From Lachnospiraceae bacterium (GTDB taxonomy: Bacteria > Bacillota > Clostridia > Lachnospirales > Lachnospiraceae), in contig JAQXFO010000006.1 in the NCBI GenBank assembly GCA_029005135.1, forward strand, positions 1-39,675: a DNA stretch of 39,675 bases, read 5' to 3'. Below are positions 5,901 through 30,075 of this stretch, one piece after another. Every line of letters begins with the position of its first letter. Positions within the stretch are counted from its first letter, which is position 1. The notes under the pieces are model-generated. The model was not told the origin of the DNA, searched no databases, and saw only the letters and a list, made by a program, of their open reading frames with translations. The position numbers and the translations under genes were made by a program.

Positions 5901-5963
5901 AAAGCTGTGGTCAGAAACAGCTCTTCCGAAGAGCACACGTTATCAGAAAGAGAGATTACCCCT

Positions 5964-6998: not shown

Positions 6999-7072
6999 CG
7001 GGGCACTTTTGCCTGTCCCGCCAACGAAGCAAAAATCTGTTATTTTTGGCAAAAAATCTTGGGTTTTGTCCG

Positions 7073-7101
7073 TTGACAGCATCAAAAGCACTGTGTAAGA
7101 T
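7073..7101 (+). promoter_or_regulatory. Sigma-A promoter of the SerA-like gene
   Basis: TTGACA (7073-7078) and TAAGAT (7096-7101) have a 17-bp spacer. This is a consensus -35 and near-consensus -10, 44 bp before the ATG at 7145. The ribosome site is AAGGAGG at 7132-7138. Confidence 0.75.
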
Positions 7102-7144
7102 TTAGTTAAAGCTATCACAATTTAATCCTATAAGGAGGCTTATT

Positions 7145-8809: not shown

Positions 8810-11401
8810 ATGAATATCAGTCGTTTTACACAGAAATCGCTGGAGGCTGTCCGGCAGCTTGAAAAAACAGCCTATGACTTCGGCAATCAGGAAGTGACGC
8901 AGGAGCATCTGCTCTATGTGCTTCTGACGCAGGAGGATTCCCTGATCCTGAAGCTTTTTGAGAAGATGGGGGTCTCGGGTGAGACCTTTACCGGGGCCGT
9001 GGAGGAACTGCTGAACGCCAAGGTCAAGGTTCAGGGCGGCCAGCCCTATATCGGCGCTGACCTGAATGAGGTTCTGGTGAAGGCCGAAGACGAGGCTAAG
9101 TCCATGGGCGATGACTATGTCTCGGTCGAGCACCTGCTCCTGACGATGCTGAAGCATCCGAATCCTTCGGTCAAAGGTTTGTTCAAACGCTTCGGCATCG
9201 ACCGTGAGGGTTTCCTCAAGGCCCTGAGTGCTGTGCGCGGCAACCAGAAGGTCACCACGGATAATCCGGAGGCGACCTATGATACCTTGAATAAATACGG
9301 CGAGGATCTGGTGGAAAAAGCCCGGCGTCAGAAGCTGGATCCGGTTATCGGCCGTGATGAAGAGATCCGTCAGACCATCCTCATACTGTCCCGTAAAACA
9401 AAGAACAATCCGGTGCTGATCGGTGAGCCCGGCGTCGGCAAGACCGCCGCTGTGGAAGGCCTGGCCCAGCGTATCGTGGCCGGGGATGTGCCGGATAATC
9501 TGAAGGATAAGAAGATATTTGCTCTGGATATGGGCGCCCTGGTGGCCGGTGCCAAATACCGCGGCGAATTCGAGGAGCGTCTGAAGGCCGTCCTCAACGA
9601 TGTCCGCGAGTCCGACGGCAAGATCATTCTTTTCATCGACGAGCTCCATCTGATCGTCGGAGCCGGCAAGACCGACGGGGCCATGGATGCCGGCAACATG
9701 CTGAAGCCGATGCTGGCCCGGGGCGAGCTGCACTGCATCGGGGCCACAACCCTCGATGAGTACCGCGAATACATCGAGAAGGATAAGGCTCTGGAGAGAC
9801 GTTTCCAGCCGGTGACGGTCAATGAGCCGACGGTGGAAGACACCATTTCCATCCTCCGGGGCATCAAGGAACGTTACGAAGTCTATCACGGTGTCAAAAT
9901 CACCGACTCGGCCCTGGTGTCGGCCGCGACCCTGTCCCAGCGGTACATCACCGATCGGTTCCTGCCGGACAAGGCCATCGATCTGGTGGACGAGGCCTGC
10001 GCGCTCATCAAGACAGAACTGGATTCCATGCCGACGGAGCTGGATGAACAGCGCCGCCGTATCATGCAGCTGGAGATCGAAGAGAAGGCGCTGGAGAAGG
10101 AGACCGATACCCTGAGCCGGGACCGTCTCGAGGATCTGAAGAGGGAACTGGCCGATCTGCGGGACAGCTTCCATGCGGGCTCGGCCCAGTGGGAAAATGA
10201 AAAGAATGCTGTCGAGAATCTGAGAAAATACCGCGAACAGATCGATGACATGAATTCCCGCATCGAGATCGCCAAGCGCGATTATGATCTGAATAAGGCG
10301 GCTGAATTGCAGTATGGCGAGCTGCCACGGCTGAAGGCACAGCTGGAGGAGGCGGAGAAGGCGGTCAAAGCCCGCGAGCTCCGTATGGTGCATGAAGCGG
10401 TCACGGATGACGAGATCGCCCGGATTGTGTCGAAGTGGACCGGTATTCCGGTGGCCAAACTGACCGAGGGTGAAAAGGCCAAGGTCCTCCATCTCGACGA
10501 AGAGCTGCACCGCCGGGTGATCGGTCAGGACGAAGCCGTTTCCCGGGTGGCCGATGCCATTCTGCGTTCCAAGGCCGGTATCAAGGATCCCGGCAAGCCC
10601 ATCGGCTCCTTCCTGTTCCTCGGCCCGACCGGTGTCGGCAAGACGGAGCTGGCCAAGACACTGGCGGCTTCTCTTTTCGATGATGAGAATAACATGGTGC
10701 GTATCGATATGAGTGAGTATATGGAGAAATACTCCGTATCCCGTCTGATCGGGGCGCCTCCGGGCTATGTCGGCTACGATGAAGGCGGTCAGCTGACGGA
10801 AGCCGTCCGCCGCAAGCCCTTCTCCGTGGTCCTCTTTGATGAGGTGGAAAAGGCGCACCCGGATGTTTTCAACGTCCTTCTGCAGGTGCTGGATGACGGC
10901 CGCATCACTGACAGCCAGGGACGTACGGTGGATTTTAAGAATACCATCATCATTATGACTTCTAACCTGGGGTCCGCGAGTCTTCTGGAGGGTATCCGGG
11001 AGGACGGCACGATCAGTGACGAGGCCCGCACCCAGGTCAACGCCGAACTCAAAGCGCATTTCAGGCCGGAATTCCTGAACCGTCTGGATGAGATATTGAT
11101 GTTCAAGCCGTTGACGCGGGACAATATTACCGGCATCGTCGATCTGCTGATGGCGGATCTGAACCGCCGGATCGGCAATCAGGAGCTGACCATCGCCCTG
11201 GATGAGACGGCGAAGAGCAAGATCATCGATGACGGCTATGAGCCGGCCTTCGGCGCCCGCCCGCTGAAGCGTTATCTTCAGAAGCATGTGGAGACGCTGG
11301 CGGCCCGTCTTATCCTGAAGGGGGATATCCACGAGGGTGCACAGATCCGTATCGGCGTCCGGGACGGCGAGCTCTATGCTTATACGGCAGAAAAGCCGTA
11401 A
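8810..11401 (+). CDS. clpB: ATP-dependent disaggregase ClpB
   Basis: The 863-residue protein has full ClpB length. In order it shows a Clp_N domain (residues ~1-150, starting [13 protein letters not shown]), the first AAA+ module with Walker [10 protein letters not shown] (~204-212), a long coiled M-domain (~400-520), the second AAA+ module with Walker [10 protein letters not shown] (~605-613), and the C-terminal D2-small domain. The M-domain marks it as a disaggregase that works with DnaK to rescue aggregated proteins, not a ClpC protease partner. The CIRCE/promoter pair upstream indicates HrcA-controlled heat-shock expression. A strong terminator follows, so it is a single-gene unit. The opposite strand holds a very long open frame, treated as a codon-bias shadow. 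Confidence 0.97.
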
Positions 11402-11564: not shown

Positions 11565-11583
11565 CGTTGCACAGTGAGCAACG
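11565..11583. promoter_or_regulatory. Small inverted repeat upstream of the catabolic cluster
   Basis: CGTTGC (11565-11570) and GCAACG (11578-11583) flank a 7-nt spacer. It lies just before the putative promoter of the IolD-like gene, so it may be an operator half-site pair or a leader hairpin. Support is weak because of its size. Confidence 0.35.
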
Positions 11584-11598
11584 AGGAGGCCGATTGCC

Positions 11599-11628
11599 GT
11601 AACAAATTTGTTTTTCCAATGATACAAT
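11599..11628 (+). promoter_or_regulatory. Putative promoter/operator of the catabolic cluster
   Basis: A possible -35 GTAACA (11599-11604) and -10 TACAAT (11623-11628) are 18 bp apart. The -35 is overlapped by the perfect 12-bp palindrome AACAAATTTGTT (11601-11612), a plausible repressor site. The IclR-type protein encoded at 21243 is the nearest candidate regulator. About 70 nt of AT-rich leader follow before the ATG at 11699. Confidence 0.45.
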
Positions 11629-11698
11629 CCGAGAAAAGGACAGCTTTTAATAAAACTGAAATATCTATCACAAAACTCTATAACAATCGAGGTACTTT

Positions 11699-13576
11699 AT
11701 GAGCGAAATCATCGAAATGAGAAGAAAACGCGCACAGCAGATCAAGGCGTACGGCACCCTTCGCGGCGCTGTGGAAGCGGGAACCCTGGAGCAGTTCCAG
11801 GCCGTCAGTCTCAGTGAGGCTGTCGTGATGGGCCTGGTCAACCAGGGTGTTACCACCTTCGTCGGTATCTTCGGTCACGGTATGACCGATGTCGGTGAAG
11901 TCCTTCGTATCTATGAGGAAGAAAAGGCCGTGAGGACTGTCAATGTCCGCAATGAGATCGAAGCGTCTCATATCGCATCGATGCTCAGATGGAAATACAA
12001 TACGCCGGCGGCTGTCTTCACATCCATCGGCCCGGGGGCCATGCAGGCCGCGGCCGGTTCTCTGGTGCCGCTGTCCAACGGCCTGGGCATCTACTATCTG
12101 ATGGGTGATGAAACCAGCCACAGCGAGGGTCCGAACATGCAGCAGATCCCGCGTCGTGAGGAGGAACTCTTCCTCAAGCTTTACTCGACCCTCGGCCCGG
12201 CTTACACCCTTCACACCGCCGAAGCCGTCTTCACGGCTCTGAAACGCGGCGATGCCGTGGTGAACGGCAGGGAAAAGCATTCTCCCTTCTATATGCTGCT
12301 GCCCATGAATATTCAGCCGAAGGTCATGGAGACCTGCAACCTTCTGGAATTCCCGGAGAGATCACCGGAGTCCCATGTGGTCAGTATCGATGAAGCCGTT
12401 TACGCCGAAGCAGCCGAAGCGATCCGCAAGGCTTCCCGCGTGACCCTCAAGATCGGCGGCGGTGCGGCCAAAGTGCCGGCCTCAGTCATCGATGAGTTCG
12501 TCGAACTCAGTGATGCGGCTTATGTCCACGGTCCGCAGGTGCCGGGGGTCTATCCCTATTCCAAACCCCGCAATATGGGTGTGGGCGGATCCAAAGGTTC
12601 TATCAGCGGCAATTATGCGCTGGATGAATGCGATCTTCTGGTGGCTGTCGGTACCCGCGGTGTCTGTCAGTGGGACAGCTCAGGCACAGCCTTTGCCAAA
12701 GCCGCGAAGATCATCAACATCAACTGCGATTACGACGATCTGGGCCAGTACAACCGGTCCATCCGTATCCAGGGCCACGCCGAAGCTGTTCTGACACGTC
12801 TGAATGAGATGCTGCGTGCCGAAGGCAAGGCGAAGAATCCGGCCTGGCTGGAAGCCATCACGGCGAAAAAGGCGGAGTGGGAAGACTACAAAAAAGCCCG
12901 TTATGACCAGCCGACTCTGATGGATGAGAAACGCGGCCGTTCGATTCTGACTGAGCCGGCAGCCATCAAGGCGGCTGTCGATTTCGCCGATGCTCATGAG
13001 ATGGTTAAGATCTTTGATGCCGGCGATGTCCAGGCCAACGGCTTCCAGATCGTTACCGATGAAAAGCCGGGCATGACCGTCACGGATACCGGTTCTTCCT
13101 ATATGGGCTTTGCGGTGTCCTCGATGCTGGCCTTCGCTCTGGCGGGCGGTAAAGATGTCCCGATGGCCTTTACCGGTGACGGCAGCTTTATGATGAATCC
13201 GCAGATCCTGATCGATGCCGTTCAGTACGGCCTGAAGGGCACTATCGTGATCTTTGACAACCGCCGTATGGCGGCTATCACCAGCCTTCAGTTTGCCCAG
13301 TACAATGTGGGCTTTGCTACGGACGATCAGGTCGTCGTCGATTATGTCAAGATGGCCGATGCCGTCTGCGGTGTCAAGGGTATCTATGGCGGTGAATCGC
13401 TCGAAGAGCTGCAGCAGGCTCTGGAAGAGGCCTACGCCTACAACGGCCTGTCCGTTATCCATGTGCCGGTCTACTTCGGCCGTGAGGAACTGGGCGGTCT
13501 GGGCGCCTTCGGCGACTGGAATGTCGGCAACAACTGCGAGAGAGTACAGAAACTCAAACATGAAATCGGCTTCTGA
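11699..13576 (+). CDS. IolD-like thiamine-diphosphate-dependent enzyme (trihydroxycyclohexanedione hydrolase family)
   Basis: The 625-residue protein has the three-domain layout of the acetolactate synthase/IolD superfamily. The N-terminal segment TTFVGIFGHGMTDVGE and the activating Glu86 in NVRNEIEAS match the ThDP Pyr domain. The C-terminal ThDP-binding motif runs from GDG (493-495) to Asp520-Asn521, where many relatives have NN. The IFGHG segment, length and C-terminal DWNVGN region make it closest to IolD, which hydrolytically opens a cyclic 1,2-diketone in inositol breakdown. No other iol genes are nearby, so the substrate may be a different diketone or 2-oxoacid. It heads a co-directional run with an alcohol dehydrogenase, a molybdenum hydroxylase, a transketolase and an isomerase. 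Superfamily call is sure; exact reaction is not. Confidence 0.75.
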   Translation: MSEIIEMRRKRAQQIKAYGTLRGAVEAGTLEQFQAVSLSEAVVMGLVNQGVTTFVGIFGHGMTDVGEVLRIYEEEKAVRTVNVRNEIEASHIASMLRWKYNTPAAVFTSIGPGAMQAAAGSLVPLSNGLGIYYLMGDETSHSEGPNMQQIPRREEELFLKLYSTLGPAYTLHTAEAVFTALKRGDAVVNGREKHSPFYMLLPMNIQPKVMETCNLLEFPERSPESHVVSIDEAVYAEAAEAIRKASRVTLKIGGGAAKVPASVIDEFVELSDAAYVHGPQVPGVYPYSKPRNMGVGGSKGSISGNYALDECDLLVAVGTRGVCQWDSSGTAFAKAAKIININCDYDDLGQYNRSIRIQGHAEAVLTRLNEMLRAEGKAKNPAWLEAITAKKAEWEDYKKARYDQPTLMDEKRGRSILTEPAAIKAAVDFADAHEMVKIFDAGDVQANGFQIVTDEKPGMTVTDTGSSYMGFAVSSMLAFALAGGKDVPMAFTGDGSFMMNPQILIDAVQYGLKGTIVIFDNRRMAAITSLQFAQYNVGFATDDQVVVDYVKMADAVCGVKGIYGGESLEELQQALEEAYAYNGLSVIHVPVYFGREELGGLGAFGDWNVGNNCERVQKLKHEIGF

Positions 13577-13621
13577 TCACGGAAGACCGTTTTATGCATA
13601 GACCAAAAAAGGAGGATCACT

Positions 13622-14728
13622 ATGGAGATTAAAGTTCCGGAAACAATGAAAGCATGGGTTCTCGGTGACCCGGGAGTACTGACACTGGAAGAAAAGCCGG
13701 TTCCGAAGCCGGGCAGAGGCGAGGTACTCGTGAAGATCGACGCGGTCGCCATCTGTGCTACAGACCTGGAAATCATCGAAAATGGTCCGCCCGCTTTGAT
13801 TCAGGGTGGCCTGCCGTTCAACAAGAATTTCACACCCGGCCATGAATACATGGGCCGTGTCGCAGCTCTTGGCGAAGGTGTCGATGAATACAAGATCGGT
13901 GACAGAGTTGCTGTCGAGATCCATGCCGGATGCGGCCGCTGCGAGCGCTGCCGTGAAGGTATGTACACATCCTGCCTGAATTACGGCCAGAATTATCCGG
14001 GTCATGACAAGGGGCACAGAGCGAACGGCTTCACCACCGACGGCGGCTTTGCCGAATACGCCATCAACAATGTCAATACCCTCTGCCATGTCGGTGATGA
14101 TGTCTCTGACGAAGTGGCTACCCTTATCGTCACTGCCGGTACAGCGATGTATGCCCTGGATACGGTGGCCGGTCTGGTAGCCGGTCAGTCCGTCGTCGTC
14201 TCAGGCCCGGGCCCGATCGGTCTTATGGCTGTTGCCGTGGCCAAAGCCCTCGGTGCCAATCCGGTTATCCTGACGGGTACCCGTGACAACAGACTGGAAC
14301 TGGGCAAGAAGCTCGGTGCCGACTACACCATCAATGTCAGAGAAAAGGATGTCGTTCAGACCGTTAAGGAACTGACTGGCGGCGAAGGCGTCCATTACGT
14401 CGTCGAGTGCTCCGGCGCTCCGAATGCTGTTAACGAAGCCACCAGCATGGTCAAGCGCGGCGGCCGCGTCGTTCTGGCAGCCTTCCCGAAGAAACAGGTC
14501 GAAGTGGATGTGGCCGCTCTGGTCCGCAACAACATTTCCCTGTTTGGTATCCGCGGTGAAGGCAGAAGCGCTGTTCACAGAGCAGCTTCCCTTATCAGCG
14601 AAGGCCGTTTCGATGCTTCTCTGATCCATACCCATACCTTTGAATTCGACGAGCTGCTGACAGCTCTGAAGTATTCAAGAGAAAGAATCGATGACGCCAT
14701 CAAGGTCGTTGTCAAGATGCCCAAGTAA
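13622..14728 (+). CDS. Zinc-dependent medium-chain alcohol/polyol dehydrogenase
   Basis: The 368-residue protein is typical of the MDR superfamily (sorbitol, threonine and inositol-type dehydrogenases). Catalytic zinc ligands are Cys45 in ICATDLE and His74-Glu75 in GHEYMG. The structural zinc site is the four-Cys block GCGRCERC...SC. The Rossmann motif GPGPIG follows in the second half. The ribosome site AAGGAGG is strong, and the gene lies 45 bp after the IolD-like gene, so they are probably co-transcribed. It likely oxidises a secondary hydroxyl with NAD(P)+, possibly making the ketone handled by the TPP enzyme. That order is inferred from synteny, and the substrate is unknown. Confidence 0.85.
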   Translation: MEIKVPETMKAWVLGDPGVLTLEEKPVPKPGRGEVLVKIDAVAICATDLEIIENGPPALIQGGLPFNKNFTPGHEYMGRVAALGEGVDEYKIGDRVAVEIHAGCGRCERCREGMYTSCLNYGQNYPGHDKGHRANGFTTDGGFAEYAINNVNTLCHVGDDVSDEVATLIVTAGTAMYALDTVAGLVAGQSVVVSGPGPIGLMAVAVAKALGANPVILTGTRDNRLELGKKLGADYTINVREKDVVQTVKELTGGEGVHYVVECSGAPNAVNEATSMVKRGGRVVLAAFPKKQVEVDVAALVRNNISLFGIRGEGRSAVHRAASLISEGRFDASLIHTHTFEFDELLTALKYSRERIDDAIKVVVKMPK

Positions 14729-14746
14729 TCCCTCATACGACAAAAG

Positions 14747-14804
14747 GGTCCTTACGGCGTAAGGGCCGGGCGCCTCGGGCGGATCGCAGGAAGCGGTCCG
14801 CCCG
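14747..14804 (+). other. Two GC-rich intercistronic hairpins
   Basis: GGTCCTTA/TAAGGGCC (14747-14754 with 14760-14767, one G-U pair) is followed by a 12-bp stem (14776-14787 with 14793-14804, one G-U pair). Neither is followed by a T-run, so they look more like mRNA-processing or stabilising structures, or an attenuator, between the dehydrogenase and hydroxylase genes. Confidence 0.5.
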
Positions 14805-14863
14805 GCTTGGGCGCTCACAGGAAGCAACGGTTCACCGATCTTATACCAGAAGGAGTCGCCTGC

Positions 14864-15742
14864 ATGATCCAGTACCATTATTACGAAATGCCTCAGACCC
14901 GGGAGGAACTTTTCCGCCTGCTTGAGAGCATTGACCGCGATTATGTCATTCTTTCCGGCGCCACCGATCTCTATGCCCACGACAAAACGGCTTTTGAGAC
15001 CCTTGACTGCGCCGTCGATATCAGCGGGATTGACGAATTCCGGCAGATCAGTGCCGCCGACGGCGAGATCACCATCGGGGCTATGACCAGAATACAGCGT
15101 TTTCTGGAAGATCCGGAGCTGATTAAGACGGTACCGCTTTTCCGGCATGCCGCCTGCTTCTTTGCGGACCGGCAGATCCGTCAGATGGCGACCATCGGCG
15201 GCAATGTGGCCAATGCCTCGCCGGTCGGCGACATGATTCCCTGTCTTCTGGCCATGGATGCCCGCGTCAACACGATGCGGCCGGCAGAGGGCAGACTGAC
15301 GGAACGTTCCGTGCCCATCGGCGAATTTATCGTCGGCGTGGGCAAAACACAGCTTGAGAAGGGTGAGGTCATCACCTCCTTCAGCTGTCCGATACTTGAA
15401 AATTACGGCTGCGCTTTCAAAAAAGTCGGTCTGAGACGGTCTCTGTGCATTTCCACCGTCAATGCGGCTTTTATGGTGAAGACCGATGAAAGCGGTCAGC
15501 GTTTTGACGATGTCAGGATCGCCTTCGGTGCCATCGGCCCGGTCGATATCCGGCTGACCGCCGTCGAGGATTTCCTCCGCGGCAAAGCCGTCACGCCTGA
15601 CACGATAGAAGCGTGTGTGAATTATCTGCCCGAAGGCGTGATCCGCTCACGCAGCCGGCGCGAGTACAGAAGCCATATCGTTCCCAATTTCCTGAGGGCA
15701 GGTCTTCGCGAAGCCCTTGCGGATCTTAACATCCGGTTGTAA
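14864..15742 (+). CDS. Molybdenum hydroxylase FAD-binding subunit (XdhB/CoxM/YgfM-like)
   Basis: The 292-residue protein starts at ATG 14864 after AGAAGGAG; an earlier in-frame ATG at 14807 lies within the hairpin region and lacks a ribosome site. The FAD-binding signature is ATIGGNVANASPVGDMIPCLLA (15187-15252), preceded by ADRQIRQM. This is the flavin subunit of xanthine-dehydrogenase-family enzymes. It passes electrons from the Fe-S clusters to NAD+ or another acceptor. The gene for the Fe-S/Moco subunit follows after 49 bp. The order FAD subunit then fused Fe-S/Moco subunit resembles E. coli ygfM-xdhD. Substrate specificity lies in the partner subunit. Confidence 0.88.
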   Translation: MIQYHYYEMPQTREELFRLLESIDRDYVILSGATDLYAHDKTAFETLDCAVDISGIDEFRQISAADGEITIGAMTRIQRFLEDPELIKTVPLFRHAACFFADRQIRQMATIGGNVANASPVGDMIPCLLAMDARVNTMRPAEGRLTERSVPIGEFIVGVGKTQLEKGEVITSFSCPILENYGCAFKKVGLRRSLCISTVNAAFMVKTDESGQRFDDVRIAFGAIGPVDIRLTAVEDFLRGKAVTPDTIEACVNYLPEGVIRSRSRREYRSHIVPNFLRAGLREALADLNIRL

Positions 15743-15791
15743 GCGGCAGGGTGAAGCAGGGTCGACTCATTAAGAAAGGGTGGAAACGACG

Positions 15792-18662
15792 GTGGAATAT
15801 ATCAAAGCAGAAATCAAGATCAACGGCAAAATGGTGAGCCGCCTGGTGCCGCCGGCCATGCGTCTGGCGGACTTCCTGAGGGATGAGCTGCATCTTATAG
15901 GCACCAAGAAGGGCTGCAATGCCGGTGAATGCGGCACCTGTTCGGTCCTCATCGACGGTGTTCTGAAAAAAAGCTGTCTGATCCCGGTCGCCCAGGTCAA
16001 TCATCACGAGGTGGTGACGATCGAAGGCATCGGTCAGAAGGGCCTGAGCATCATTCAGCGCAGCTTCATGAAGGTCGGCGCGGTACAGTGCGGCTACTGT
16101 ATTCCCGGCATGGTCATGGCGGCGACGTCCATTTTAAAAGAAAACCCGCATGCCGACAGAACGGCGATCCGGGCCGGGCTTGGCGGCAATATCTGCCGCT
16201 GCACCGGTTATGCCAAGATCATCAAAGCCATCGAGCTGGCCAGAGACATTATCAACGGCGATATCGGCGAGGAATGTCTGGAAGCGGAAAAGCTGGATAC
16301 GGATCAGCTGGTCGGAGCCTGTGTGGCCAGAGTCGATGCCCGGGGCAAGGTCACCGGCGCGCTGGAATACGCCGGTGATATGGTCATGCCGCGGATGCTC
16401 CATATTCACCTGGTCAGGACGAAGGAGGTTCACGCCGAGATCACCGGGATCGATGTCAGCAAGGCACTGGCGATGCCCGGTGTCGAGACGGTGCTGACCT
16501 GCGAGGACGTGCCCGGCGAGGACGGCTTCGGTGTCGGCTTCCATGATCAGCCGGTGCTGGCCCGGGGCAAGGTGCGCTTCTGGGGCGAACCGGTGGCGGC
16601 CATCGTGGCCGAGACCCTGGAAGAGGCGCAGGCCGCCGAAAAGGGCGTGGCGATCACCTATCGTCAGCTTCCCGTGGTATCCACGATTCAGGAAGCCATC
16701 GCGGGCAAGGCGATCCTCCACGAAGATCATCCGGACAATCGCCTTCAGTTCTGCCGGACCATCAAGGGAGATATCGATAAAGGCTTTGCCGCCAGCGACG
16801 TCATCATTGAGCAGGATTATGAGACCCAGGCGGTGGAGCATGCCTATATGGAGACCGAGGCCGGGCTGGCCTATGTGGATCCGGACGGTGTTCTGGTGAT
16901 CAAATCCAGTGATCAGGACATTACACATCACAGAGCCCTGCTGGCCAAGATCCTCGGGATGTCGATCAGCAAGATCCGCGTCATTATGGCGCCGGTGGGC
17001 GGCGGTTTCGGCGGCAAGGAAGACATGATCTATCAGGGCATACTGGCCATCGCGGCTCTGAAGACGGGAAGACCGGTCAGGCTGGTGTTCTCCAGAACCG
17101 ATTCGATGACAGCCAGTGCCAAGCGCCATCCGGTTCAGATCCATCATAAGATCGGTCTGACGAAGGACGGCCGCATCCAGGCCATCGACATCGAATTGAA
17201 ATCCGACGGCGGTGCCTACTGCTTCTCCACGCTCGGTACCGTCAAGAAGGCTGCCATCTGCGCCGCGGGACCCTACCGGATCCCGAATGTCCGGGTTCTT
17301 TCCTACGGCTACTACACAAATAATACCCCGTCGGGGGCCATGCGTACCTTCGGTGTCCTGCAGCCCACCTTCGGCATCGAGTCCACGATGGATATCTGCT
17401 CGGAGAAGCTGGGCATCGACCCCGTGGAGCTGAGACTGATCAATGGCATGCGGGACGGTGACAGTACCCATACCCGTCAGGTGCTGGGCAAGGTCGCCTA
17501 TCTGGATACGGTCAGGCATTGTGCCGAGATGGCCGGCTGGGAAAAGGGACCGTCCCGGGTGAGAGGCCCGCAGCGCCGCGATGTGAAGAGTGACCAGGTG
17601 GGCATTCCCTACATTCCCGGTTACGAATTCAAGTCCGAAAAGGCTCTGGAGGAGTGCCGCTCCCGGTTCCGCTACGGCCGCGGTATCGGTACCTCCTGGT
17701 ACGGCATCGGCCGCTGCGCCTCGGTGGACCGGGCCAGCGCCTTCTGTGAGATCGATGACGGCAGCACCGCCAAGATCCTGACCGGGGCCACCGAGATCGG
17801 CGAGGGCCTGCTGACCGTTCTGACGCAGATCGCGGCGGAGGAGCTGGGCCTGTATCCGGAAGATATCACCATCGGCGACAACGACACGGCAAGAGCGCCG
17901 GAAGCGGCCCATGCCGGGGCCAGCCGCCAGACCTATATGATTGGCAATGCGGTGGTCAACGCCTGCCGCGACGCCAAAAAGCATTTTATCGATGATATTG
18001 CCCGTTACTGGAATGTGGACAGTTCGTCCATCGTCATGAAAAACCGGCGGATCTATGTGGAGGGCCATGACGGCTTCAATATTTCCGTCGGGGAAGGTGT
18101 TGATATCTGCAAGAAAAAGCTGGGCACGGTGCCGGTGGGTTCCGGTGTCTACACGGCCCATCACGGCGGACTGGATCCCGAGACCGGGGCCGGTGATCCC
18201 TGGCAGGCCTATGTTTTCGGCAGCCAGATCGCCGAGGTCGCCGTCGATACCTACACCGGCGAGGTTTATGTCCTGGGCATCTGGGCTTCTCACGATGTGG
18301 GCCGGGTGGTCAATCCCAACGGTGTCGAAGGACAGATCGAGGGCGGTGCCGTTCAGAGTATCGGCCAGGCCATCATGGAACATTATCAGCTGTCCGACGG
18401 CGTGCCGGTGACGAAGAATTTTGCCAAATATATCCTTCCCACCAGCGTCGATGTGCCGGAATTCCATTCGGATCTGGTGGAAAACCGGGATCCCTTCAGC
18501 CCCCTGGGGGCCAAGGGTGTCGGGGAGCCGGCACCTCTGCCCACCATGCCGGCCGTTGTCAACGCGATCTATGATGCCGTCGGCGTCCGCATCACATCGC
18601 TGCCGGCTTCACCGGAGAAGATCCTGAACGCGCTGGCCAAAAAAGAGGAAACATGCGGATAA
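15792..18662 (+). CDS. Molybdenum hydroxylase, fused [2Fe-2S] and molybdopterin-binding subunit (XdhD-like)
   Basis: From GTG 15792 the protein has 956 residues; a GTG at 15780 is also in frame but overlaps the likely ribosome site AGAAAGGG. Residues ~1-160 are the two-cluster ferredoxin-like domain: Cys42, 47, 50 and 62 for the first cluster, then CGYC and CRC for the second. The rest is the Moco domain, with GGGFGGKED, NTPSGAMRTFG and the catalytic Glu912 in KGVGEPAP. Most bacterial relatives keep these two parts as separate proteins; the fusion resembles E. coli XdhD (YgfN). Such enzymes hydroxylate heteroaromatic carbons or oxidise aldehydes using water. The substrate is unknown. No MCD-cofactor maturation or XdhC-type gene is nearby, so these would have to be elsewhere. 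Confidence 0.88.
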   Translation: MEYIKAEIKINGKMVSRLVPPAMRLADFLRDELHLIGTKKGCNAGECGTCSVLIDGVLKKSCLIPVAQVNHHEVVTIEGIGQKGLSIIQRSFMKVGAVQCGYCIPGMVMAATSILKENPHADRTAIRAGLGGNICRCTGYAKIIKAIELARDIINGDIGEECLEAEKLDTDQLVGACVARVDARGKVTGALEYAGDMVMPRMLHIHLVRTKEVHAEITGIDVSKALAMPGVETVLTCEDVPGEDGFGVGFHDQPVLARGKVRFWGEPVAAIVAETLEEAQAAEKGVAITYRQLPVVSTIQEAIAGKAILHEDHPDNRLQFCRTIKGDIDKGFAASDVIIEQDYETQAVEHAYMETEAGLAYVDPDGVLVIKSSDQDITHHRALLAKILGMSISKIRVIMAPVGGGFGGKEDMIYQGILAIAALKTGRPVRLVFSRTDSMTASAKRHPVQIHHKIGLTKDGRIQAIDIELKSDGGAYCFSTLGTVKKAAICAAGPYRIPNVRVLSYGYYTNNTPSGAMRTFGVLQPTFGIESTMDICSEKLGIDPVELRLINGMRDGDSTHTRQVLGKVAYLDTVRHCAEMAGWEKGPSRVRGPQRRDVKSDQVGIPYIPGYEFKSEKALEECRSRFRYGRGIGTSWYGIGRCASVDRASAFCEIDDGSTAKILTGATEIGEGLLTVLTQIAAEELGLYPEDITIGDNDTARAPEAAHAGASRQTYMIGNAVVNACRDAKKHFIDDIARYWNVDSSSIVMKNRRIYVEGHDGFNISVGEGVDICKKKLGTVPVGSGVYTAHHGGLDPETGAGDPWQAYVFGSQIAEVAVDTYTGEVYVLGIWASHDVGRVVNPNGVEGQIEGGAVQSIGQAIMEHYQLSDGVPVTKNFAKYILPTSVDVPEFHSDLVENRDPFSPLGAKGVGEPAPLPTMPAVVNAIYDAVGVRITSLPASPEKILNALAKKEETCG

Positions 18663-18730
18663 GTCCTTCGGACGTCCGCTGTCAAACAGCTCAACAAGAC
18701 AGGAATGAAGAGAAAGAGGTGACAGATATC

Positions 18731-19591
18731 TTGAGCGAACATACAAGATTTGAGGAACTGACACGTTTTAGTGCCGAGATCCGCAAGGAAACCACCAAAG
18801 CTATTGCCGGGGCCGGCTTCGGCCATATCGGCGGCTCTGCGTCCATCGCGGATGTTCTGGCTGTTCTTTACGGCGGCATGATGAAGATCGACCCGTCCGA
18901 TCCGGAATGGGAGGATCGCGACAGACTGGTGCTGTCGAAGGGGCACTGCGGCCCGGCGCTCTACGCCGTGCTGGCCCTGAAGGGGTATTTCCCGATGGAA
19001 TGGCTTCAGACGGTAAATAAACCGGGCACCAACCTGCCCAGCCATGCGGACTGCCGCAAAACACCGGGCGTGGATATGACGACCGGCTCCCTGGGGCAGG
19101 GCGTGTCTTCGGCTCTGGGTATCGCCTTGGGCAACCGCATCCTCGGCCGTGATGCTTATACCTACTGCATCTGCGGTGACGGTGAGACGAATGAGGGCGA
19201 GGTCTGGGAAGCCGCGGAGACGGCAAACCAGCTGAAGCTGGATCATTACATCCTTTTTGTGGACTGGAACAAGAAACAGCTTGACGGCCGTCTGGAGACG
19301 ATCTGCGACCCCATCGACCTGGAGGCCAAGTTCCGCGCCTTCGGTTTTGATGCCAGAACCGTCAAGGGCGACGATGTTGAAGCCATCTGGAACGGCATTG
19401 AGGATGCCAAGGCCGTCAGCGGCCGTCCCCATGCCATCATTCTGGACACGGTCAAGGGCGAGGGCGTCAATTTCGCTGAAGAAGAAGAATTCAATCATTA
19501 CATGACGTTCGGCATGGACAAAGCCGAAGCGGCCTGTGCCGAGATCGACCGTCGTCTGAGAAACGGGACTTATCCGGGAGGTGATTGCTGA
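18731..19591 (+). CDS. Transketolase N-terminal (TPP-binding) subunit
   Basis: This is one half of a split transketolase. The preferred start is TTG 18731, because AAAGAGGTGA (18713-18722) sits at ideal ribosome-site distance; this gives 286 residues. In-frame ATG 18653 and GTG 18719 are alternatives. Motifs are GHIGGSAS, SKGHCGPALYA, MTTGSLGQG, and the TPP motif GDGETNEGEVWEA...VDWNKKQLDG. Family members transfer two-carbon units between ketose and aldose phosphates. Split forms include both pentose-pathway enzymes and substrate-specific ones, such as apulose-4-phosphate transketolase. Its stop overlaps the start of the C-terminal subunit by one base. Its place inside this cluster suggests a dedicated substrate. 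Confidence 0.88.
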   Translation: MSEHTRFEELTRFSAEIRKETTKAIAGAGFGHIGGSASIADVLAVLYGGMMKIDPSDPEWEDRDRLVLSKGHCGPALYAVLALKGYFPMEWLQTVNKPGTNLPSHADCRKTPGVDMTTGSLGQGVSSALGIALGNRILGRDAYTYCICGDGETNEGEVWEAAETANQLKLDHYILFVDWNKKQLDGRLETICDPIDLEAKFRAFGFDARTVKGDDVEAIWNGIEDAKAVSGRPHAIILDTVKGEGVNFAEEEEFNHYMTFGMDKAEAACAEIDRRLRNGTYPGGDC

Positions 19592-20556
19592 TGGTAAAGC
19601 TTTGTAAGGAGATCAAGGTATCGCCGGAAGAGATGAGAGCGGCCTACTGCGGCGCTCTGATAGAAGAAGGGAAGAAGAATCCGAAGGTCGTGACGGTGGA
19701 CTGCGATCTGATGAATTCCTGCGGGACAAAGGGATTCATGAAGGCTTTTCCGGACCGGGCCTTCAACATCGGCATTCAGGAACAGAATGCCTGTGCCATG
19801 GCCGGCGGTCTGTCGGCAGCGGGCCTCATTCCCTTTGTGCATACCTTTGCCGTTTTTGCCACACGCCGGATCTACGACCAGATCTTTCTGAGCTGCGCCT
19901 ATGCCGGCAAGAATGTCAAGATTGTCGGCTGCGATGCCGGTGTCAGTGCCGCTTTCAACGGCGGCACGCATATGGCCTTCGAGGATATGGGTATCATGCG
20001 GGTGATGCCGGATGTGACGATCCTTGAGCCGTCTGATCCGGTCATGATGCGCGCACTTCTGCCGCAGGTGGCGGAGACCTACGGTGTCTTCTATCTGCGC
20101 ATGCCGCGCAAGACCGTTTATCAGATCTATGAGGAAGGCTCTGAATTCACACTGGGCAAGGCTGAGATCATCCGTGAAGGTTCGGATATCACCCTGATCG
20201 CCATCGGTCTGGAGGTCAGGCAGGCGCTGGCTGCGGCTGATATCCTGGCCGCCGAGGGCATCAGCGCCCGGGTGGTGGATATGTTCACGCTGAAGCCTGT
20301 TGATGCGGACTGCATCAGAAAGTGTGCCGCCGAGACAGGCGCCATCGTCACCTGTGAGAATGAAAGTATTATCGGCGGTCTCGGCAGTGCCGTGGCGGAA
20401 GTTCTGGTGGAAGCCGATCCGGTGCCCATGGGCCGCATCGGTGTCCGGGATGAATTCGGCGAAGTCGGCCCCCAGTCCTATCTGGAGGAGCGCTTTGGCC
20501 TGACAGCCGCCCATATCGCCGACAAAGCGCGGGAAGTTCTGGCCCGCAAAAAATGA
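19591..20556 (+). CDS. Transketolase C-terminal (pyrimidine-binding) subunit
   Basis: From ATG 19591 (TGATG overlap with the upstream stop) the protein has 321 residues. A Met codon six bases earlier is also in frame, but GGGAGGTGA at 19577-19585 favours 19591. The Pyr domain carries the conserved activating Glu in FNIGIQEQNACAMAGGLS. The transketolase C-domain follows (GLEVRQALAAADILAAEGISARVVDMFTLKP region, about 20206-20300). It must pair with the preceding subunit, because the TPP site lies at the interface. The substrate cannot be assigned from sequence alone. Confidence 0.88.
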   Translation: MVKLCKEIKVSPEEMRAAYCGALIEEGKKNPKVVTVDCDLMNSCGTKGFMKAFPDRAFNIGIQEQNACAMAGGLSAAGLIPFVHTFAVFATRRIYDQIFLSCAYAGKNVKIVGCDAGVSAAFNGGTHMAFEDMGIMRVMPDVTILEPSDPVMMRALLPQVAETYGVFYLRMPRKTVYQIYEEGSEFTLGKAEIIREGSDITLIAIGLEVRQALAAADILAAEGISARVVDMFTLKPVDADCIRKCAAETGAIVTCENESIIGGLGSAVAEVLVEADPVPMGRIGVRDEFGEVGPQSYLEERFGLTAAHIADKAREVLARKK

Positions 20557-20602
20557 CACCGGAGCATGAGTTCCGGCATGAATCCGAAGGAGGAATATCA
20601 CT

Positions 20603-21232
20603 ATGAAAATTGCGGTTATCAATGAAGTCAGTGCCTCGCTGAAAAACGCCGACATCATCGCGGCTCTTCAGGAAACCACGGACGCTGAGATCCTGAATGT
20701 CGGTATGAAGGAGCCGTCACAGCTGCCTTCTCTGACCTACATCCATACCAGCTACATGGCGGCCATCCTGCTGAACACGGGCGCCTGCGACTTTGTGGTC
20801 GGCGGCTGCGGCACCGGTCAGGGCTTCCTGAACGGCGTCCTTCAGTTCCCGAACGTGGTCTGCGGCCTTATCGTTGAACCGCTGGATGCCTGGCTCTTTT
20901 CCCAGATCAACGGCGGCAACTGCATTTCCCTGCCGCTGAATAAAGGCTACGGCTGGGCCGGCAATATCAACCTGAAATACACCTTTGAGAAGCTCTTCGC
21001 CGATCCGGCCGGTGCCGGTTATCCGCGGGAAAGAGCCGAATCCCAGGCCGAAAGCCGTGCCATTCTCGGCCGGGTCTCCCAGCTGACCCACAAGGATCTT
21101 CTGACGATCCTCAGAGAATCCGATACGTCGATCCTCAGCGCCATGGCCGGCACGGAAGCCTTCATGGACGCCCTGAAAAACGGCGGCGACAAGGCACAGC
21201 CGGTCTATGAGCTGCTGTCTCAGTATCGATAA
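20603..21232 (+). CDS. RpiB/LacA/LacB-family sugar-phosphate isomerase-like protein
   Basis: The 209-residue protein begins at ATG 20603 after GAAGGAGGA. The RpiB signature is VVGGCGTGQGF, with the catalytic Cys at residue 69. It is about 60 residues longer than standard RpiB (~150), with a distinct C-terminal part (GYPRERAE...LTHKDLLTIL). Family members interconvert aldose and ketose phosphates (ribose-5-P/ribulose-5-P, tetrose-4-P or galactose-6-P). Next to a split transketolase it could prepare the acceptor or process the product. The extended subfamily lacks a firmly known substrate as far as I can say. Confidence 0.75.
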   Translation: MKIAVINEVSASLKNADIIAALQETTDAEILNVGMKEPSQLPSLTYIHTSYMAAILLNTGACDFVVGGCGTGQGFLNGVLQFPNVVCGLIVEPLDAWLFSQINGGNCISLPLNKGYGWAGNINLKYTFEKLFADPAGAGYPRERAESQAESRAILGRVSQLTHKDLLTILRESDTSILSAMAGTEAFMDALKNGGDKAQPVYELLSQYR

Positions 21233-21242
21233 GAGGTAGAGC

Positions 21243-22013
21243 ATGATTCAGTCATTAGCCAGAGGACTTGAAATCCTGTCCATTCTTCAGGAAAAAGGCA
21301 GCGCCACGGTGGCTGAGATTGCCGCAGCCCTTGATGTGAACAAAAGCACGGTCTCCCGGCTGATGGCCACACTGATGCAGTATGACATGGTCAGTATCGA
21401 CACGGTGTCAAAAAAATACCGTCTGGGCTTCCGCAATCTGTATCTGGGAGAAGGTGTTAAAAAGAATTTCACCATCGCACAGGCAGCGCGGCCGTATCTT
21501 CACAAGATTTGTGATGAGACAAAGGAAAGCGTGCATCTGGCCACGATGGGCAACCGGCGCATGTATATCGTCGATCAGGTCATGAGTCAGAGGGACTATA
21601 ATGTCTCGGCTCAGGTCGGCATGATCGAAGCCTGGCATTGCTCTTCGGTGGGCAAATGCGTACTGGCCCACAAGAGTCAGGCTTTTATCGACGCCATTCT
21701 GGAAGATTACGACTTTGTGGCCTACACACCCCATACCATTACGACCCGGGAGGCTCTGGAAAATGAGCTGAGCCGGATCCGCGATCAGGGCTATGCCCTG
21801 GATGACGAGGAGGTAACGGTGGGCGTTCGCTGCCTGGCGGTGCCGATCTTCAACTACGGGGGTGTCAGCTGCTGCATCGGCATCTCGGCACCGAAGGATC
21901 AGATCACACCGGAAACCATAAAAAGCTATACCCGCTGCATGAAAAAATACTGCAGCCAGATCAGTAAAGAGCTGGCCGATGGTCTCTACCGGGATCCGGC
22001 TTCAACTCGCTGA
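21243..22013 (+). CDS. IclR-family transcriptional regulator
   Basis: The 256-residue protein has the family's standard length. Residues ~1-65 form a winged helix-turn-helix (SLARGLEILSILQEKG, TVAEIAAALDVNKSTVSRLMATL). The rest is the IclR effector-binding domain (HLATMGNRRMYIVDQV, WHCSSVGKCVLAH, GYALDDEEVTVGVRCLAVPIF). IclR proteins commonly control catabolic genes and bind the pathway's substrate or an intermediate. It lies 10 bp after the isomerase gene and upstream of the transporter, so it most likely controls this cluster. Candidate palindromic operators are 11601-11612 and 22131-22146. Whether it represses or activates is unknown. Confidence 0.92.
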   Translation: MIQSLARGLEILSILQEKGSATVAEIAAALDVNKSTVSRLMATLMQYDMVSIDTVSKKYRLGFRNLYLGEGVKKNFTIAQAARPYLHKICDETKESVHLATMGNRRMYIVDQVMSQRDYNVSAQVGMIEAWHCSSVGKCVLAHKSQAFIDAILEDYDFVAYTPHTITTREALENELSRIRDQGYALDDEEVTVGVRCLAVPIFNYGGVSCCIGISAPKDQITPETIKSYTRCMKKYCSQISKELADGLYRDPASTR

Positions 22014-22130
22014 TGTTTGTCAGCTTATGTTTGTCAGACGGCTGTGGCCGTTGACATAGATGCCAATCCTTTGAAGGGGGGATGTTGAGGGATAGGGGTG
22101 TGCATCACAAATACTCGTTCGACAGCAGGA

Positions 22131-22146
22131 TTTTGATTCATCAAAA
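22131..22146. promoter_or_regulatory. Palindromic operator candidate upstream of the transporter
   Basis: TTTTGAT, a TC spacer, and ATCAAAA make a perfect 7-bp inverted repeat 39 bp before the transporter ATG. Its size and AT-rich palindromic form suit an IclR-type site. Further upstream ATGTTTGTCAG is repeated with a 14-bp period (22013-22023 and 22027-22037). No convincing -35/-10 pair was found in this 171-bp gap. Confidence 0.45.
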
Positions 22147-22184
22147 CGCAGTGATAACTGCAGAAAGGTACAGGTTTTAATAAT

Positions 22185-23630
22185 ATGGCGGAAAAAAAAG
22201 AAAAATCATTAGCCTATAAATACGGCTTTCTGGCTCTTTCGCTTGCCATCATTATCATTTTCAGATTCCTTCCGGTTCCGGCTACGCTGGAATCCGTATG
22301 CAGCGCTATCGAAGGCGGCTCCGGCCGCAGCGCCATGACGCTTCTGGGCATCCTTCTGGGTGTTGTTATTCTGTGGATCACCGAAGCGATTCCGCTGGCG
22401 GTTTCTTCTATGTTTATTCCGATCTTCATCGGTCTGTTTAACATCGACAAATTCAATGTCGTTTTCAAGGCCACCTTCGGTTCCAACGTTTTCGCCTTCT
22501 TCATGGGCATTCTGGCCATCTCCGTTGCCTGCCGCAAGAGCGGTCTGGCCAAAAAGATGGCGGCCTACTTCGGTATGGTCTCCAGTAAGAGACCGTCTCT
22601 GGTTCTGCTCCTTGTTATGGCGATCTCCTTCTTCATCTCCATGTGGATCACAGACATGGCCGCCGTCGGTATTATGATCCCGATCGGTCTGGCTGTTCTG
22701 GCCACCATCAACGCCGTCCGCGGTGAGAGCAATTTCGGTAAAGCGATCATGCTCGGTATCTCCTGGGGTTCTGTCTTCGGTGGTATCACAACACCGTCCG
22801 GCGTCAGCTCCAACATCATCGCGATGACCTTCCTGGGCGAAGCCGGCGTTGACGTCACCTTCACTCAGTGGCTGACGATCTGCTTCCCGATCGGCCTTAT
22901 TGATCTGATTCTGGGCTGGCTGGTTCTCCTGCTGGTGTTCAAACCGGAAGTCAAGGAGATCGCTTTTGATAAAACGGCGATGAAGAAGCAGCTGGCTGAA
23001 GACAAATGGACAAAGAGCCAGATCTGGATCGTTGTCGTCTTCGCCTTCATGATCCTGGCCTTCCTGACCTCCAGCAAGACCGGTCTCAACATCAACCTGA
23101 TCGCTTTCATGCTTATCCCGCTTCTTATGCTGCCGGGCATCAGCGCTTTCAAGGATTTCAAGGATTTCCAGTCATCCCTTAACTGGGGCGCCATCATCCT
23201 GGCTGTCGCCGGTGTTTCCCTCGGTGTCTACGCTCAGTCAACCGGTCTGTCATCCTGGATCGCCCAGATGCTGCTGTCTCCGGTTGCCAAGCTTCCGGGC
23301 ATCCTGCAGCTCGGCGGTGTCTCCATCCTGACTGATATCGGCGGTCTTGTGCTGTCCTCCATGAACATCACAGCGACGATCTTCGTGCCGATCGTTATCG
23401 ACTTTGCTGCCCAGACAGGCGCCAGCGTCTTCGCTATGGCTCTGGCCGCGACCTGCGCCAGCTCCACCGTTATCGTGCTTGTGACACAGACACCGACACT
23501 GGTTCTGACCTACGCCGAAGGCTATTATTCCATCAAGGAATGTGCCAAGGCCGGTATCATCATGACCGTTCTTTCCGCTGTTGTTGTGGCTGTCTGGCTG
23601 ACACTGATGGTCGCCTGCGGCATGGTCTAA
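22185..23630 (+). CDS. DASS-family (SLC13/CitT-like) anion:cation symporter
   Basis: The 481-residue protein is an integral membrane transporter with about a dozen hydrophobic segments. Family marks include WITEAIPLAVSSMFIP near the N-terminus, FFISMWITDMAAVGIMIPIG, SWGSVFGGITTPSGVSSNIIA, NWGAIILAVAGVSLG, and the late membrane run ALAATCASSTVIVLVTQTPT. DASS proteins take up di- and tricarboxylates or sulfate, usually with sodium. The position right after the regulator of the catabolic cluster makes it the probable importer of that pathway's substrate, which would then be an anion, most likely a carboxylate. The gene has its own 171-bp upstream region and a terminator behind it. Codons are strongly biased, suggesting good expression. 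Confidence 0.85.
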   Translation: MAEKKEKSLAYKYGFLALSLAIIIIFRFLPVPATLESVCSAIEGGSGRSAMTLLGILLGVVILWITEAIPLAVSSMFIPIFIGLFNIDKFNVVFKATFGSNVFAFFMGILAISVACRKSGLAKKMAAYFGMVSSKRPSLVLLLVMAISFFISMWITDMAAVGIMIPIGLAVLATINAVRGESNFGKAIMLGISWGSVFGGITTPSGVSSNIIAMTFLGEAGVDVTFTQWLTICFPIGLIDLILGWLVLLLVFKPEVKEIAFDKTAMKKQLAEDKWTKSQIWIVVVFAFMILAFLTSSKTGLNINLIAFMLIPLLMLPGISAFKDFKDFQSSLNWGAIILAVAGVSLGVYAQSTGLSSWIAQMLLSPVAKLPGILQLGGVSILTDIGGLVLSSMNITATIFVPIVIDFAAQTGASVFAMALAATCASSTVIVLVTQTPTLVLTYAEGYYSIKECAKAGIIMTVLSAVVVAVWLTLMVACGMV

Positions 23631-28683: not shown

Positions 28684-28785
28684 TATAAAAATTTTATAAA
28701 CGCAATACCCGAAAACGTCTCTGAAGTTATCATCATTGCCGGCCCGCGTTCTGGTATACGGGCTTTTCTTGTGAAGGAGGGTGTT

Positions 28786-29976: not shown

Positions 29977-30020
29977 TAACGGTCGTCAGCCCCTGCGGCT
30001 GATGTGCCTGTGACTGAGTC

Positions 30021-30059: not shown

Positions 30060-30075
30060 CCAAAAGGAGACGGCT

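Follow-up and report, generated by a model that had tools for sequence, protein, structure and literature searches.

What degradation route could be encoded by a gene set that joins, in this order, a TPP enzyme, a Zn-dehydrogenase, a two-gene Mo hydroxylase, a split transketolase, an RpiB-like isomerase, an IclR regulator and a DASS transporter? We addressed this question in the window, that is, the whole 39,675-nucleotide stretch of Lachnospiraceae DNA that was analysed. Open reading frames (ORFs), Pfam and NCBIfam models confirmed the nine co-directional genes and the families named in a sequence-only reading of the same DNA, all on the + strand at 11699–23630. Intergenic gaps measure 45 bp between the TPP enzyme and dehydrogenase (ADH) genes, 37 bp between the Mo hydroxylase genes CoxM and CoxSL, 46 bp between the C-terminal transketolase half (TKC) and RpiB, 10 bp between RpiB and IclR and 171 bp between IclR and DASS; the N-terminal transketolase half (TKN) overlaps TKC and, as its longest ORF, also CoxSL. 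For the FAD subunit, whose longest ORF runs from 14807, homologues begin at the methionine at 14864, which we take as the probable start. The true start of TKN probably lies about 66 bp downstream of that of the longest ORF (18653), and TKC also probably starts slightly later than its longest ORF (19585). Promoter and terminator scans gave little excess over shuffled sequences (9 versus 6.3 and 14 versus 10.5, respectively). A literature search of open-licence papers returned no description of the nine-gene set.

The first gene (11699–13576, +), with Pfam TPP_enzyme N, M and C domains, would encode a TPP-dependent C–C cleaving enzyme. It scored 155.5 bits against the IolD model TIGR04377 (cut-off 715), and acetolactate-synthase-like proteins of the host genome and its relatives outscore it on this model, at about 200–267 bits. 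We assign its kinship with IolD because of a tree and active-site columns, not because of the model score. Among 81 sequences (80 loci plus the window), ORF calling retrieved the TPP gene from 74, and 69 passed a length filter of 560–720 amino acids; in a tree of 83 sequences, these 69 family members grouped with two IolDs, apart from acetolactate synthases, with a support of 1.0. Compared with two IolDs and two acetolactate-synthase-like sequences, the motifs GHG (columns 59–61) and SIGPG (columns 109–113) were common to the TPP family and IolD. Glyoxylate carboligase was ruled out: all 69 members have Glu at position 86, and carboligases lack Glu at the corresponding position. Judged from its sequence, the enzyme is thus a member of a separate subfamily that is sister to IolD; the label 'IolD-like' holds in kind but not as IolD itself. 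IolD converts a C6 ring to a C6 acid, and we counted it against our best explanation that the TPP product proposed below is a C5 acid.

The next three genes may supply the substrate of this enzyme. The Tdh/IolM-like ADH (13622–14728, +) is 78–87% identical to counterparts in nine other gut loci and scored 214.4 bits against the IolM scyllo-inosose dehydrogenase model (NF041097), below the cut-off of 450. The Mo hydroxylase comprises an FAD subunit of the CoxM/XdhB type (14864–15742, +; FAD_binding_5 and CO_deh_flav_C) and CoxSL, in which the FeS and Mo subunits are fused (15780–18662, +; Fer2, Fer2_2, Ald_Xan_dh_C and MoCoBD_1/2). We rejected xanthine dehydrogenase and plain aldehyde oxidase as its identity, as its scores fell below the cut-offs for both selenium-dependent xanthine dehydrogenase (TIGR03311; 570.1 bits, cut-off 830.45) and Mo aldehyde oxidoreductase (NF045668; 572.9 bits, cut-off 1100). 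Among PDB entries, CoxSL comes closest to an aldehyde oxidoreductase. At the positions that we take to be Glu802 and Arg880 in xanthine dehydrogenase numbering, Glu and Lys are present in all nine distinct CoxSL copies covering these sites. The host genome encodes MoaA; Anaerotruncus colihominis has the Mo genes, yet no MoaA over the cut-off. Two gut-type genomes keep the TPP gene and a KduD-like SDR (the names KduD, FadX and SSADH used here rest on scores below NCBIfam cut-offs) without Mo genes. ADH, CoxM and CoxSL behave as an entry module.

The cluster ends with an IclR-family regulator (21243–22013, +; Pfam and NCBIfam) and a DASS-type anion transporter (22185–23630, +), which matched Pfam Na_sulph_symp and, at 182.5 bits, narrowly missed the TIGR00785 cut-off of 198.6; the DASS of locus L016 scored 252.8 bits on that model. 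The transporter of this cluster shares 31–33% identity with DASS proteins from four other clusters. Entry routes vary: gut loci combine ADH and the Mo hydroxylase with anion transporters, and loci elsewhere combine a Gfo/Idh protein with sugar-type transporters, a variation that we counted against our best explanation. Among the relatives' binding proteins, the best match was a sugar/ribose-binding protein for CUT2 and AcbH for CUT1; neither these matches nor the Gfo/Idh protein of locus L053 revealed the substrate.

The sequence-only reading had named missing conservation in relatives among the results that would refute it; the neighbourhood proved conserved. Of 11 retrieved loci carrying a gut-type TPP gene, eight contain six or more of the nine families, and the A. 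colihominis locus has all nine. In nine of the 11 gut-type loci other than that of the host, TPP, ADH, CoxM and CoxSL lie side by side. Draws of 295 genomes from the order and 391 from the class each contained a single carrier, the host: of the TPP gene (at 1e-60) in the first and of CoxSL (at 1e-150) in the second. Because both genes are rare in these draws yet occur together in 9 of 11 gut-type loci, the grouping of the four genes exceeds chance. Outside the draws, two more genomes of the same genus carry the TPP gene, one with the cluster (G002) and one with TPP alone (G007).

The unit varies across loci, with an entry module and one of three alternative exits. Exit genes were counted in a tblastn table of all 80 TPP loci (interval −6 to +8 kb), since high-GC loci lose genes in the ORF caller; the genes for the NF006753 isomerase in L015 (at 7 kb upstream) and for malonate-semialdehyde dehydrogenase (MMSDH) in L023 fall outside that interval. 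L010 and L021, which are one contig, were counted once. NF006753 was present in 23 of the 80 loci and IlvD dehydratase in 28, but never both (0/80; P = 5e-6, a value that ignores shared ancestry). Every one of the 19 loci with transketolase (TK) also had NF006753, a sulfo-TK-type pairing of a two-gene transketolase and an isomerase side by side. All seven loci with MMSDH had NF006753 and none had IlvD; an SSADH-like aldehyde dehydrogenase (ALDH) was found in 25 loci, 22 of them with IlvD and none with NF006753. The scanned interval held no exit gene in 26 of the 80 loci, some of which are cut by contig ends. Six of seven ALDHs tested from TK-type loci exceeded the MMSDH cut-off, the seventh being close to acylating sulfoacetaldehyde dehydrogenase, and all four tested from IlvD loci were SSADH-like, below the cut-off.

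In the host, MMSDH (TIGR01722) is encoded on another contig, at 547.7 bits (cut-off 448.5). It exceeded the cut-off in the host (G000), G002, G324 and G326, all of them TK-bearing, and in none of the six genomes G319–G323 and G332; in G325, the MMSDH beside the cluster scored 444.2 bits, just under the cut-off, and TK gave no match. Those six genomes lack a TK half at ≥70% identity; they contain other TK halves, 34–49% identical, which could serve instead. All six have a KduD-like SDR at ≥62% (0/5 of the others) and a CoA-transferase at ≥58% (≤45% elsewhere). In some gut relatives, a KduD-like reductase and CoA/thiolase genes take the place of transketolase. A glycerate kinase gene immediately follows the thiolase gene in L161, and another lies about 9 kb from the thiolase gene of L019; the genes listed for L015 include the thiolytic set but no glycerate kinase. 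TK would be one of three alternative exit modules, its MMSDH partner being encoded outside the cluster in the host.

The isomerase (20603–21232, +) is a member of NF006753 (PRK09273), at 220 bits against a cut-off of 137, with PDB matches 2ppw and 4u8e. The label 'RpiB-like' is right for the RpiB/LacAB superfamily, but the protein lies outside the sugar-phosphate RpiB models and in the family of 4u8e, which we take to be DhuI. DhuI isomerises a deoxy-uronate (PMC12838403). TKN (18653–19591, +; Transketolase_N) has the split-chain transketolase 6yak as its best PDB match, and TKC (19591–20556, +) carries Transket_pyr and Transketolase_C. Action of the isomerase on a sugar phosphate after transketolase, as first proposed, is not supported; most likely it acts on a free acid upstream of that step.

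Our best explanation, to which we give a little less than even confidence, is a modular catabolic operon with a C5 semialdehyde intermediate; we infer every substrate and reaction in it from gene content, conservation, the non-overlapping exits and the host MMSDH. DASS would import an acidic compound, which the Zn-dehydrogenase and the Mo hydroxylase may oxidise to a dicarbonyl or 2-oxo acid. The IolD-like enzyme would then cut a C–C bond to give 3,4-dihydroxy-5-oxopentanoate (OHC-CHOH-CHOH-CH2-COO-), an aldose-type acid that the NF006753 isomerase would convert to the ketose-type 3,5-dihydroxy-4-oxopentanoate. Transfer of its C2 unit to glyceraldehyde 3-phosphate by the split transketolase would yield xylulose 5-phosphate and malonate semialdehyde, and MMSDH from elsewhere in the genome would convert the latter to acetyl-CoA and CO2. 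In IlvD-type relatives, the SSADH-like ALDH may form 2,3-dihydroxyglutarate and IlvD may convert this to 2-oxoglutarate. Thiolytic relatives would combine the KduD-like reductase with CoA activation, oxidation of the 3-hydroxyacyl-CoA and thiolytic cleavage to acetyl-CoA and glyceryl-CoA, the latter giving glycerate, the substrate for glycerate kinase. All three exits would be compatible with 3,4-dihydroxy-5-oxopentanoate as the single intermediate. Gene content supports the earlier view of one catabolic unit with anion uptake and cleavage by an IolD-like enzyme, in which transketolase hands a fragment on to the pentose-phosphate pool and no kinase is needed; a cyclic substrate is not supported. 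We further judge it somewhat less likely than not that the TPP family, which occurs in records whose titles span more than 10 phyla, is an undescribed metabolic hub: it would make one C5 deoxy-semialdehyde acid, which lineages would pass to central metabolism through three interchangeable, non-overlapping exits, and two or more entry modules could replace one another, among them the Mo hydroxylase of anaerobic gut bacteria.

Other substrates were weighed against this scheme. By reasoning only, quinate and shikimate were rejected, as the hydroxyl pattern after ring opening forbids the transketolase step, and so was 2-keto-3-deoxygluconate, for which the thiolytic ending would repeat a step already made. 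Entry of DHU, with TPP decarboxylation and then Mo oxidation, agrees with formula and family but leaves ADH idle, and was kept only as an entry route. The C5 acid might instead be a non-deoxy penturonate: an imported hexuronate would be converted to a hexarate by the Mo hydroxylase and to a 2-oxo acid by ADH, then decarboxylated by the TPP enzyme, with isomerase and transketolase yielding tartronate semialdehyde. Hexuronates are anions, the nearest structure to CoxSL is an aldehyde oxidoreductase and, by reasoning, the formulas balance with ADH, Mo hydroxylase and TPP enzyme each used once. We nevertheless consider this unlikely: the MMSDH, FabG-like dehydrogenase and BktB-like thiolase of the clusters are of kinds that normally handle CH2 or CH(CH3), not CHOH, adjoining the carboxyl or thioester, and the sugar-type transporters of other lineages are left unexplained.

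The sisterhood with IolD could also point to a variant inositol-type pathway in which the TPP enzyme, as IolD, forms the C6 acid 5-deoxyhexuronate, the isomerase replaces IolB and transketolase yields malate semialdehyde. An NF006753 gene adjoins a true iolD in one genome of the same genus (G012) and an iolG-like gene in another (G008), and an IolG-like Gfo/Idh gene, below the cut-off, adjoins TPP in L065. However, this route accounts neither for MMSDH, since transketolase would give no malonate semialdehyde, nor for the glycerate kinases, since the product of thiolysis would be a C4 acid, and inosose dehydratase was not recognised among the annotated genes, as judged from annotation; we regard this pathway as distinctly improbable. 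The Glu and Lys of CoxSL would suit ring attack by the Mo hydroxylase on a planar carboxylate, for instance an N-heteroaromatic one, but the nine genes include no amidase, deaminase or ring reductase, transketolase requires a polyhydroxylated chain, and the two gut-type genomes noted above have TPP and the KduD-like SDR but no Mo genes; we find degradation of such a compound very hard to credit.

The C5 semialdehyde scheme has partial counterparts in known systems. The sulfo-TK pathway uses a two-gene transketolase on an unphosphorylated acid-tailed ketose, together with an aldose–ketose isomerase; its products are xylulose 5-phosphate and a C2 aldehyde with an acid tail, which is taken by a dehydrogenase or reductase (PMC11659671, PMC12890257). 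The proposed exit resembles the second half of this sulfoquinovose route (SqwGH, SqwI and SqwD/SqwF) as described there, except that a carboxylate would replace the sulfonate, as MMSDH suggests, and the IolD-like enzyme would act first. The myo-inositol pathway (IolD, IolB and IolA) shares a sister of the TPP enzyme, an isomerase step like that of IolB and presumably MMSDH, which we assign to the IolA family, whereas the IolC kinase, IolJ aldolase and IolE were not recognised among the annotated genes, on annotation alone. DhuI/DhuD (KduI/KduD) metabolism of unsaturated uronates shares the NF006753 isomerase family, through the presumed DhuI link, and the KduD-like SDR of TK-less relatives; here TPP cleavage would be added, and unsaturated glucuronyl hydrolase and polysaccharide lyase were not recognised among the annotated genes, again by annotation. 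In the oxidative deoxyribonate pathway, a 2-deoxypentonate is reportedly cleaved CoA-dependently to glyceryl-CoA, followed by glycerate kinase; the thiolytic ending of the relatives is similar but uses other enzymes and would come after TPP cleavage.

To our knowledge, transketolase chemistry on unphosphorylated acids is known from sulfosugars only, and the proposed route, if true, would extend it to carboxylate sugar acids. The three exit sets, each of known chemistry, constrain one intermediate, and therefore a single synthetic C5 acid would suffice as a probe. It would likewise provide functions for a TPP family whose members automatic annotation probably labels as IolD or acetolactate synthase and for a gut Mo hydroxylase that probably passes as xanthine dehydrogenase. 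The gene set points to an undescribed degradation route in which one TPP enzyme is joined to alternative finishing genes across many phyla.

We confirmed that the nine co-directional genes grouped by the sequence-only reading (11699–23630) are real: ORF, Pfam and NCBIfam analyses placed all of them on the forward strand with short spacing, some overlapping. By eye, clpB (8810–11401) lies upstream and a convergent phosphoribosyl-pyrophosphate-synthetase-like gene lies downstream. Elsewhere in the window, a DAHP-synthase gene sits between two 2-hydroxyacid dehydrogenase genes (3758–8047), and a row of DUF819, transglutaminase-like, M20 peptidase and MR_MLE (enolase superfamily) genes (28771–33964) resembles a peptide or dipeptide-epimerase operon.

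The TPP enzyme had been called IolD-like, which holds for its clade and shared columns, but it is not IolD, because it scored 155 bits against the IolD model (cut-off 715); the iol pathway was rejected on this test. A FastTree phylogeny of 83 sequences grouped the family (69 members) with two true IolDs (872 and 879 bits) in one clade (support 1.0), outside which fell acetolactate-synthase-like proteins, E. coli IlvI, E. coli Gcl (part) and two TPP enzymes from sugar-nucleotide-type clusters. Columns G59-H60-G61 and S109-I110-G-P-G are common to the TPP enzyme and both IolDs and differ in two acetolactate-synthase-like sequences; GHG and Glu86 are kept in 69/69 family members. From these residues and the tree, we infer that the enzyme may perform an IolD-type cleavage adjacent to a carbonyl.

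Of 295 genomes drawn evenly from the order, one had a TPP relative (1e-60), and of 391 drawn evenly from the class, one had a CoxSL relative (1e-150); in each draw this was the host. Beyond these draws, two further genomes of the same genus carry the TPP gene: G002, placed in the genus of the host, has the cluster (locus L021; Candidatus Equihabitans merdae, Lachnospiraceae in NCBI) and G007 has the TPP gene alone. The cluster is therefore rare and patchy. With the TPP protein as query, a scan of species genomes picked up 95 relatives, from which 80 loci were retained; a gut-type enzyme (70–78% identical) occurs in 11 of them (L015 to L023, L026 and L031). The conserved co-occurrence of six or more of the nine families, which the sequence-only reading had proposed to look for, was seen in eight gut-type loci (L015, L016, L017, L020, L021, L022, L023 and L031), a count that, like the other co-occurrence counts given here, is inflated by the shared ancestry of loci. 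All nine are present in A. colihominis (L023); L018, which ends at a contig end, has five, L019 two and L026 one. Nine of the 11 have all three of ADH, CoxM and CoxSL, which are missing next to the TPP gene in L019 and L026. Genome-wide searches of the corresponding genomes, G323 and G332, gave no CoxSL match at 1e-60, and the sole ADH match, at 30%, was in G323.

Using tblastn over the 80 TPP loci (interval −6 to +8 kb), we found that the genes predicted to finish the pathway fall into alternative sets. The NF006753 isomerase was present in 23 loci and IlvD in 28, with both in none (P = 5e-6 assuming independent loci, which they are not). Transketolase (TK) halves occurred in 19 loci, always with NF006753; malonate-semialdehyde dehydrogenase (MMSDH) in 7, never with IlvD; and an SSADH-like aldehyde dehydrogenase (ALDH) in 25, 22 with IlvD and none with NF006753. 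None of these genes was found in 26 loci, some of which are truncated at a contig end. By HMM, six of seven ALDHs tested from TK-type loci were MMSDH above the cut-off (477–586 bits versus 448.5); the seventh (L093) was nearest acylating sulfoacetaldehyde dehydrogenase (557 bits, cut-off 600). All four tested from IlvD loci were SSADH-like, under the SSADH cut-off; several protein names used here rest on such scores. The residue preceding the catalytic Cys is Arg in both MMSDHs inspected and Val in the single SSADH-like protein inspected.

Other transketolase and isomerase loci were also observed. L176 (7283–17696, G322) holds a second, distinct cluster, in which split transketolase is joined by an NF006753 isomerase (307.7 bits) and, by eye, by TIM-barrel-like and TctC-like proteins, perhaps another transketolase-based sugar-acid pathway. 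In two genomes of the host's genus, an NF006753 isomerase may replace IolB: it adjoins a true iolD in L115 (G012) and, in L117 (G008), an iolG-like gene near which a sugar ABC transporter was recognised by eye. Directly 3′ of the transketolase halves of L010/L021 (677–2875/14033–16231) lie a dihydroxyacetone-kinase-type DhaKL and a short ordinary RpiB, which may process a triose or erythrulose-like by-product. A xylose-isomerase-like TIM-barrel protein recurs 3′ of transketolase and MMSDH (L162 11533–12570, Pfam; L031 15914–16861, by eye), maybe an epimerase fixing stereochemistry.

One INTERMEDIATE, the C5 acid OHC-CHOH-CHOH-CH2-COO-, would suit all three endings. NF006753 and TK would convert it to xylulose 5-phosphate and malonate semialdehyde, the substrate of MMSDH. 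The SSADH-like enzyme and IlvD would yield 2,3-dihydroxyglutarate and then 2-oxoglutarate, with no further enzyme necessary. An isomerase, a KduD-like reductase and a thiolytic set would give acetyl-CoA and glyceryl-CoA, the latter accounting for glycerate kinase. A C6 analogue, the product expected of IolD, is improbable, as it leaves both MMSDH and glycerate kinase without explanation; an analogue with the hydroxyl next to the carboxyl, which fits MMSDH and thiolase more poorly, is also unlikely, if less so. PDB 4u8e (gbs1892), which we take to be DhuI, belongs to NF006753. DhuI isomerizes the uronate DHU (PMC12838403, whose passages on it do not name 4u8e). No lyase or hydrolase of the DHU pathway stood out among the genes annotated.

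The gut clusters pair ADH and a Mo hydroxylase with anion transporters; in many non-gut TPP loci there are Gfo/Idh oxidoreductases, accompanied in some by sugar-type transporters. Entry into the proposed C5 intermediate may follow more than one route. DASS occurs in 4 of 11 gut-type loci, just 31–33% identical to that of the window, and a TctABC-type transporter adjoins the cluster in L021 (also fetched as L010; TctA and TctC by Pfam) and, by eye, in L020/L162. That the anion transporters are of two unrelated types suggests that the substrate is an acid. The closest PDB match of the Mo hydroxylase is MOP aldehyde oxidoreductase, and its top NCBIfam scores are far under cut-off. In an alignment to rat XDH, the positions of Glu802 and Arg880 (bovine XDH numbering) are occupied in the Mo hydroxylase by Glu and Lys, kept in 9/9 distinct copies spanning both positions, the window counted (L018 is truncated and L010 repeats L021); such a pair could be a binding site for either a planar ring or a carboxylate. 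The host has MoaA (318.6 bits) and can thus probably make the Mo cofactor. MoaA matches reached 80 bits at most in A. colihominis, and G324 had none; G326 (A. colihominis) has five Mo-hydroxylase matches, yet no MoaA above the curated cut-off.

Because the window has TK without MMSDH, the model called for MMSDH elsewhere in the host genome. This prediction came out: the host carries MMSDH on contig C51 (8510–9946; 547.7 bits; 86% identity to the A. colihominis enzyme), adjoined, by eye, by an IclR-like gene of its own. Among 11 gut genomes surveyed (G000, the host, G002, G319–G326 and G332; that of L031 was left out), MMSDH was above cut-off in G000, G002, G324 and G326, every one TK-bearing, and in none of the six genomes G319–G323 and G332. 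G325 has MMSDH near its cluster (444.2 bits, cut-off 448.5), yet no TK match at 1e-30. The same six genomes all have a KduD-like SDR (query from L015) at ≥62%, a level reached in none of the other five, and a FadX-like CoA-transferase at ≥58% (≤45% in the others). They have no TK halves at ≥70%, but all have other TK halves, 34–49% identical. In L017/L161, the genes that come after the KduD-like one, in the same orientation, encode an AMP-binding CoA ligase, CoA-transferase, FabG-like SDR, thiolase and glycerate kinase. The set recurs in L015, whose listed genes include no glycerate kinase, and in L019, where a glycerate kinase of a different kind, under its cut-off, lies about 9 kb from the thiolase; near L016 the KduD-like gene alone was observed.

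The gene set was not found described in the open-licence literature, the scope of our search, subscription papers lying outside it. We compared the TK exit with the sulfo-TK pathway, as described in PMC11659671 and PMC12890257; the exit anatomy is the same, but the end would be a carboxylate in this cluster. Without filing the cluster as a member, we suggest from the gene content of its exit that it would work like the sulfo-TK pathway.
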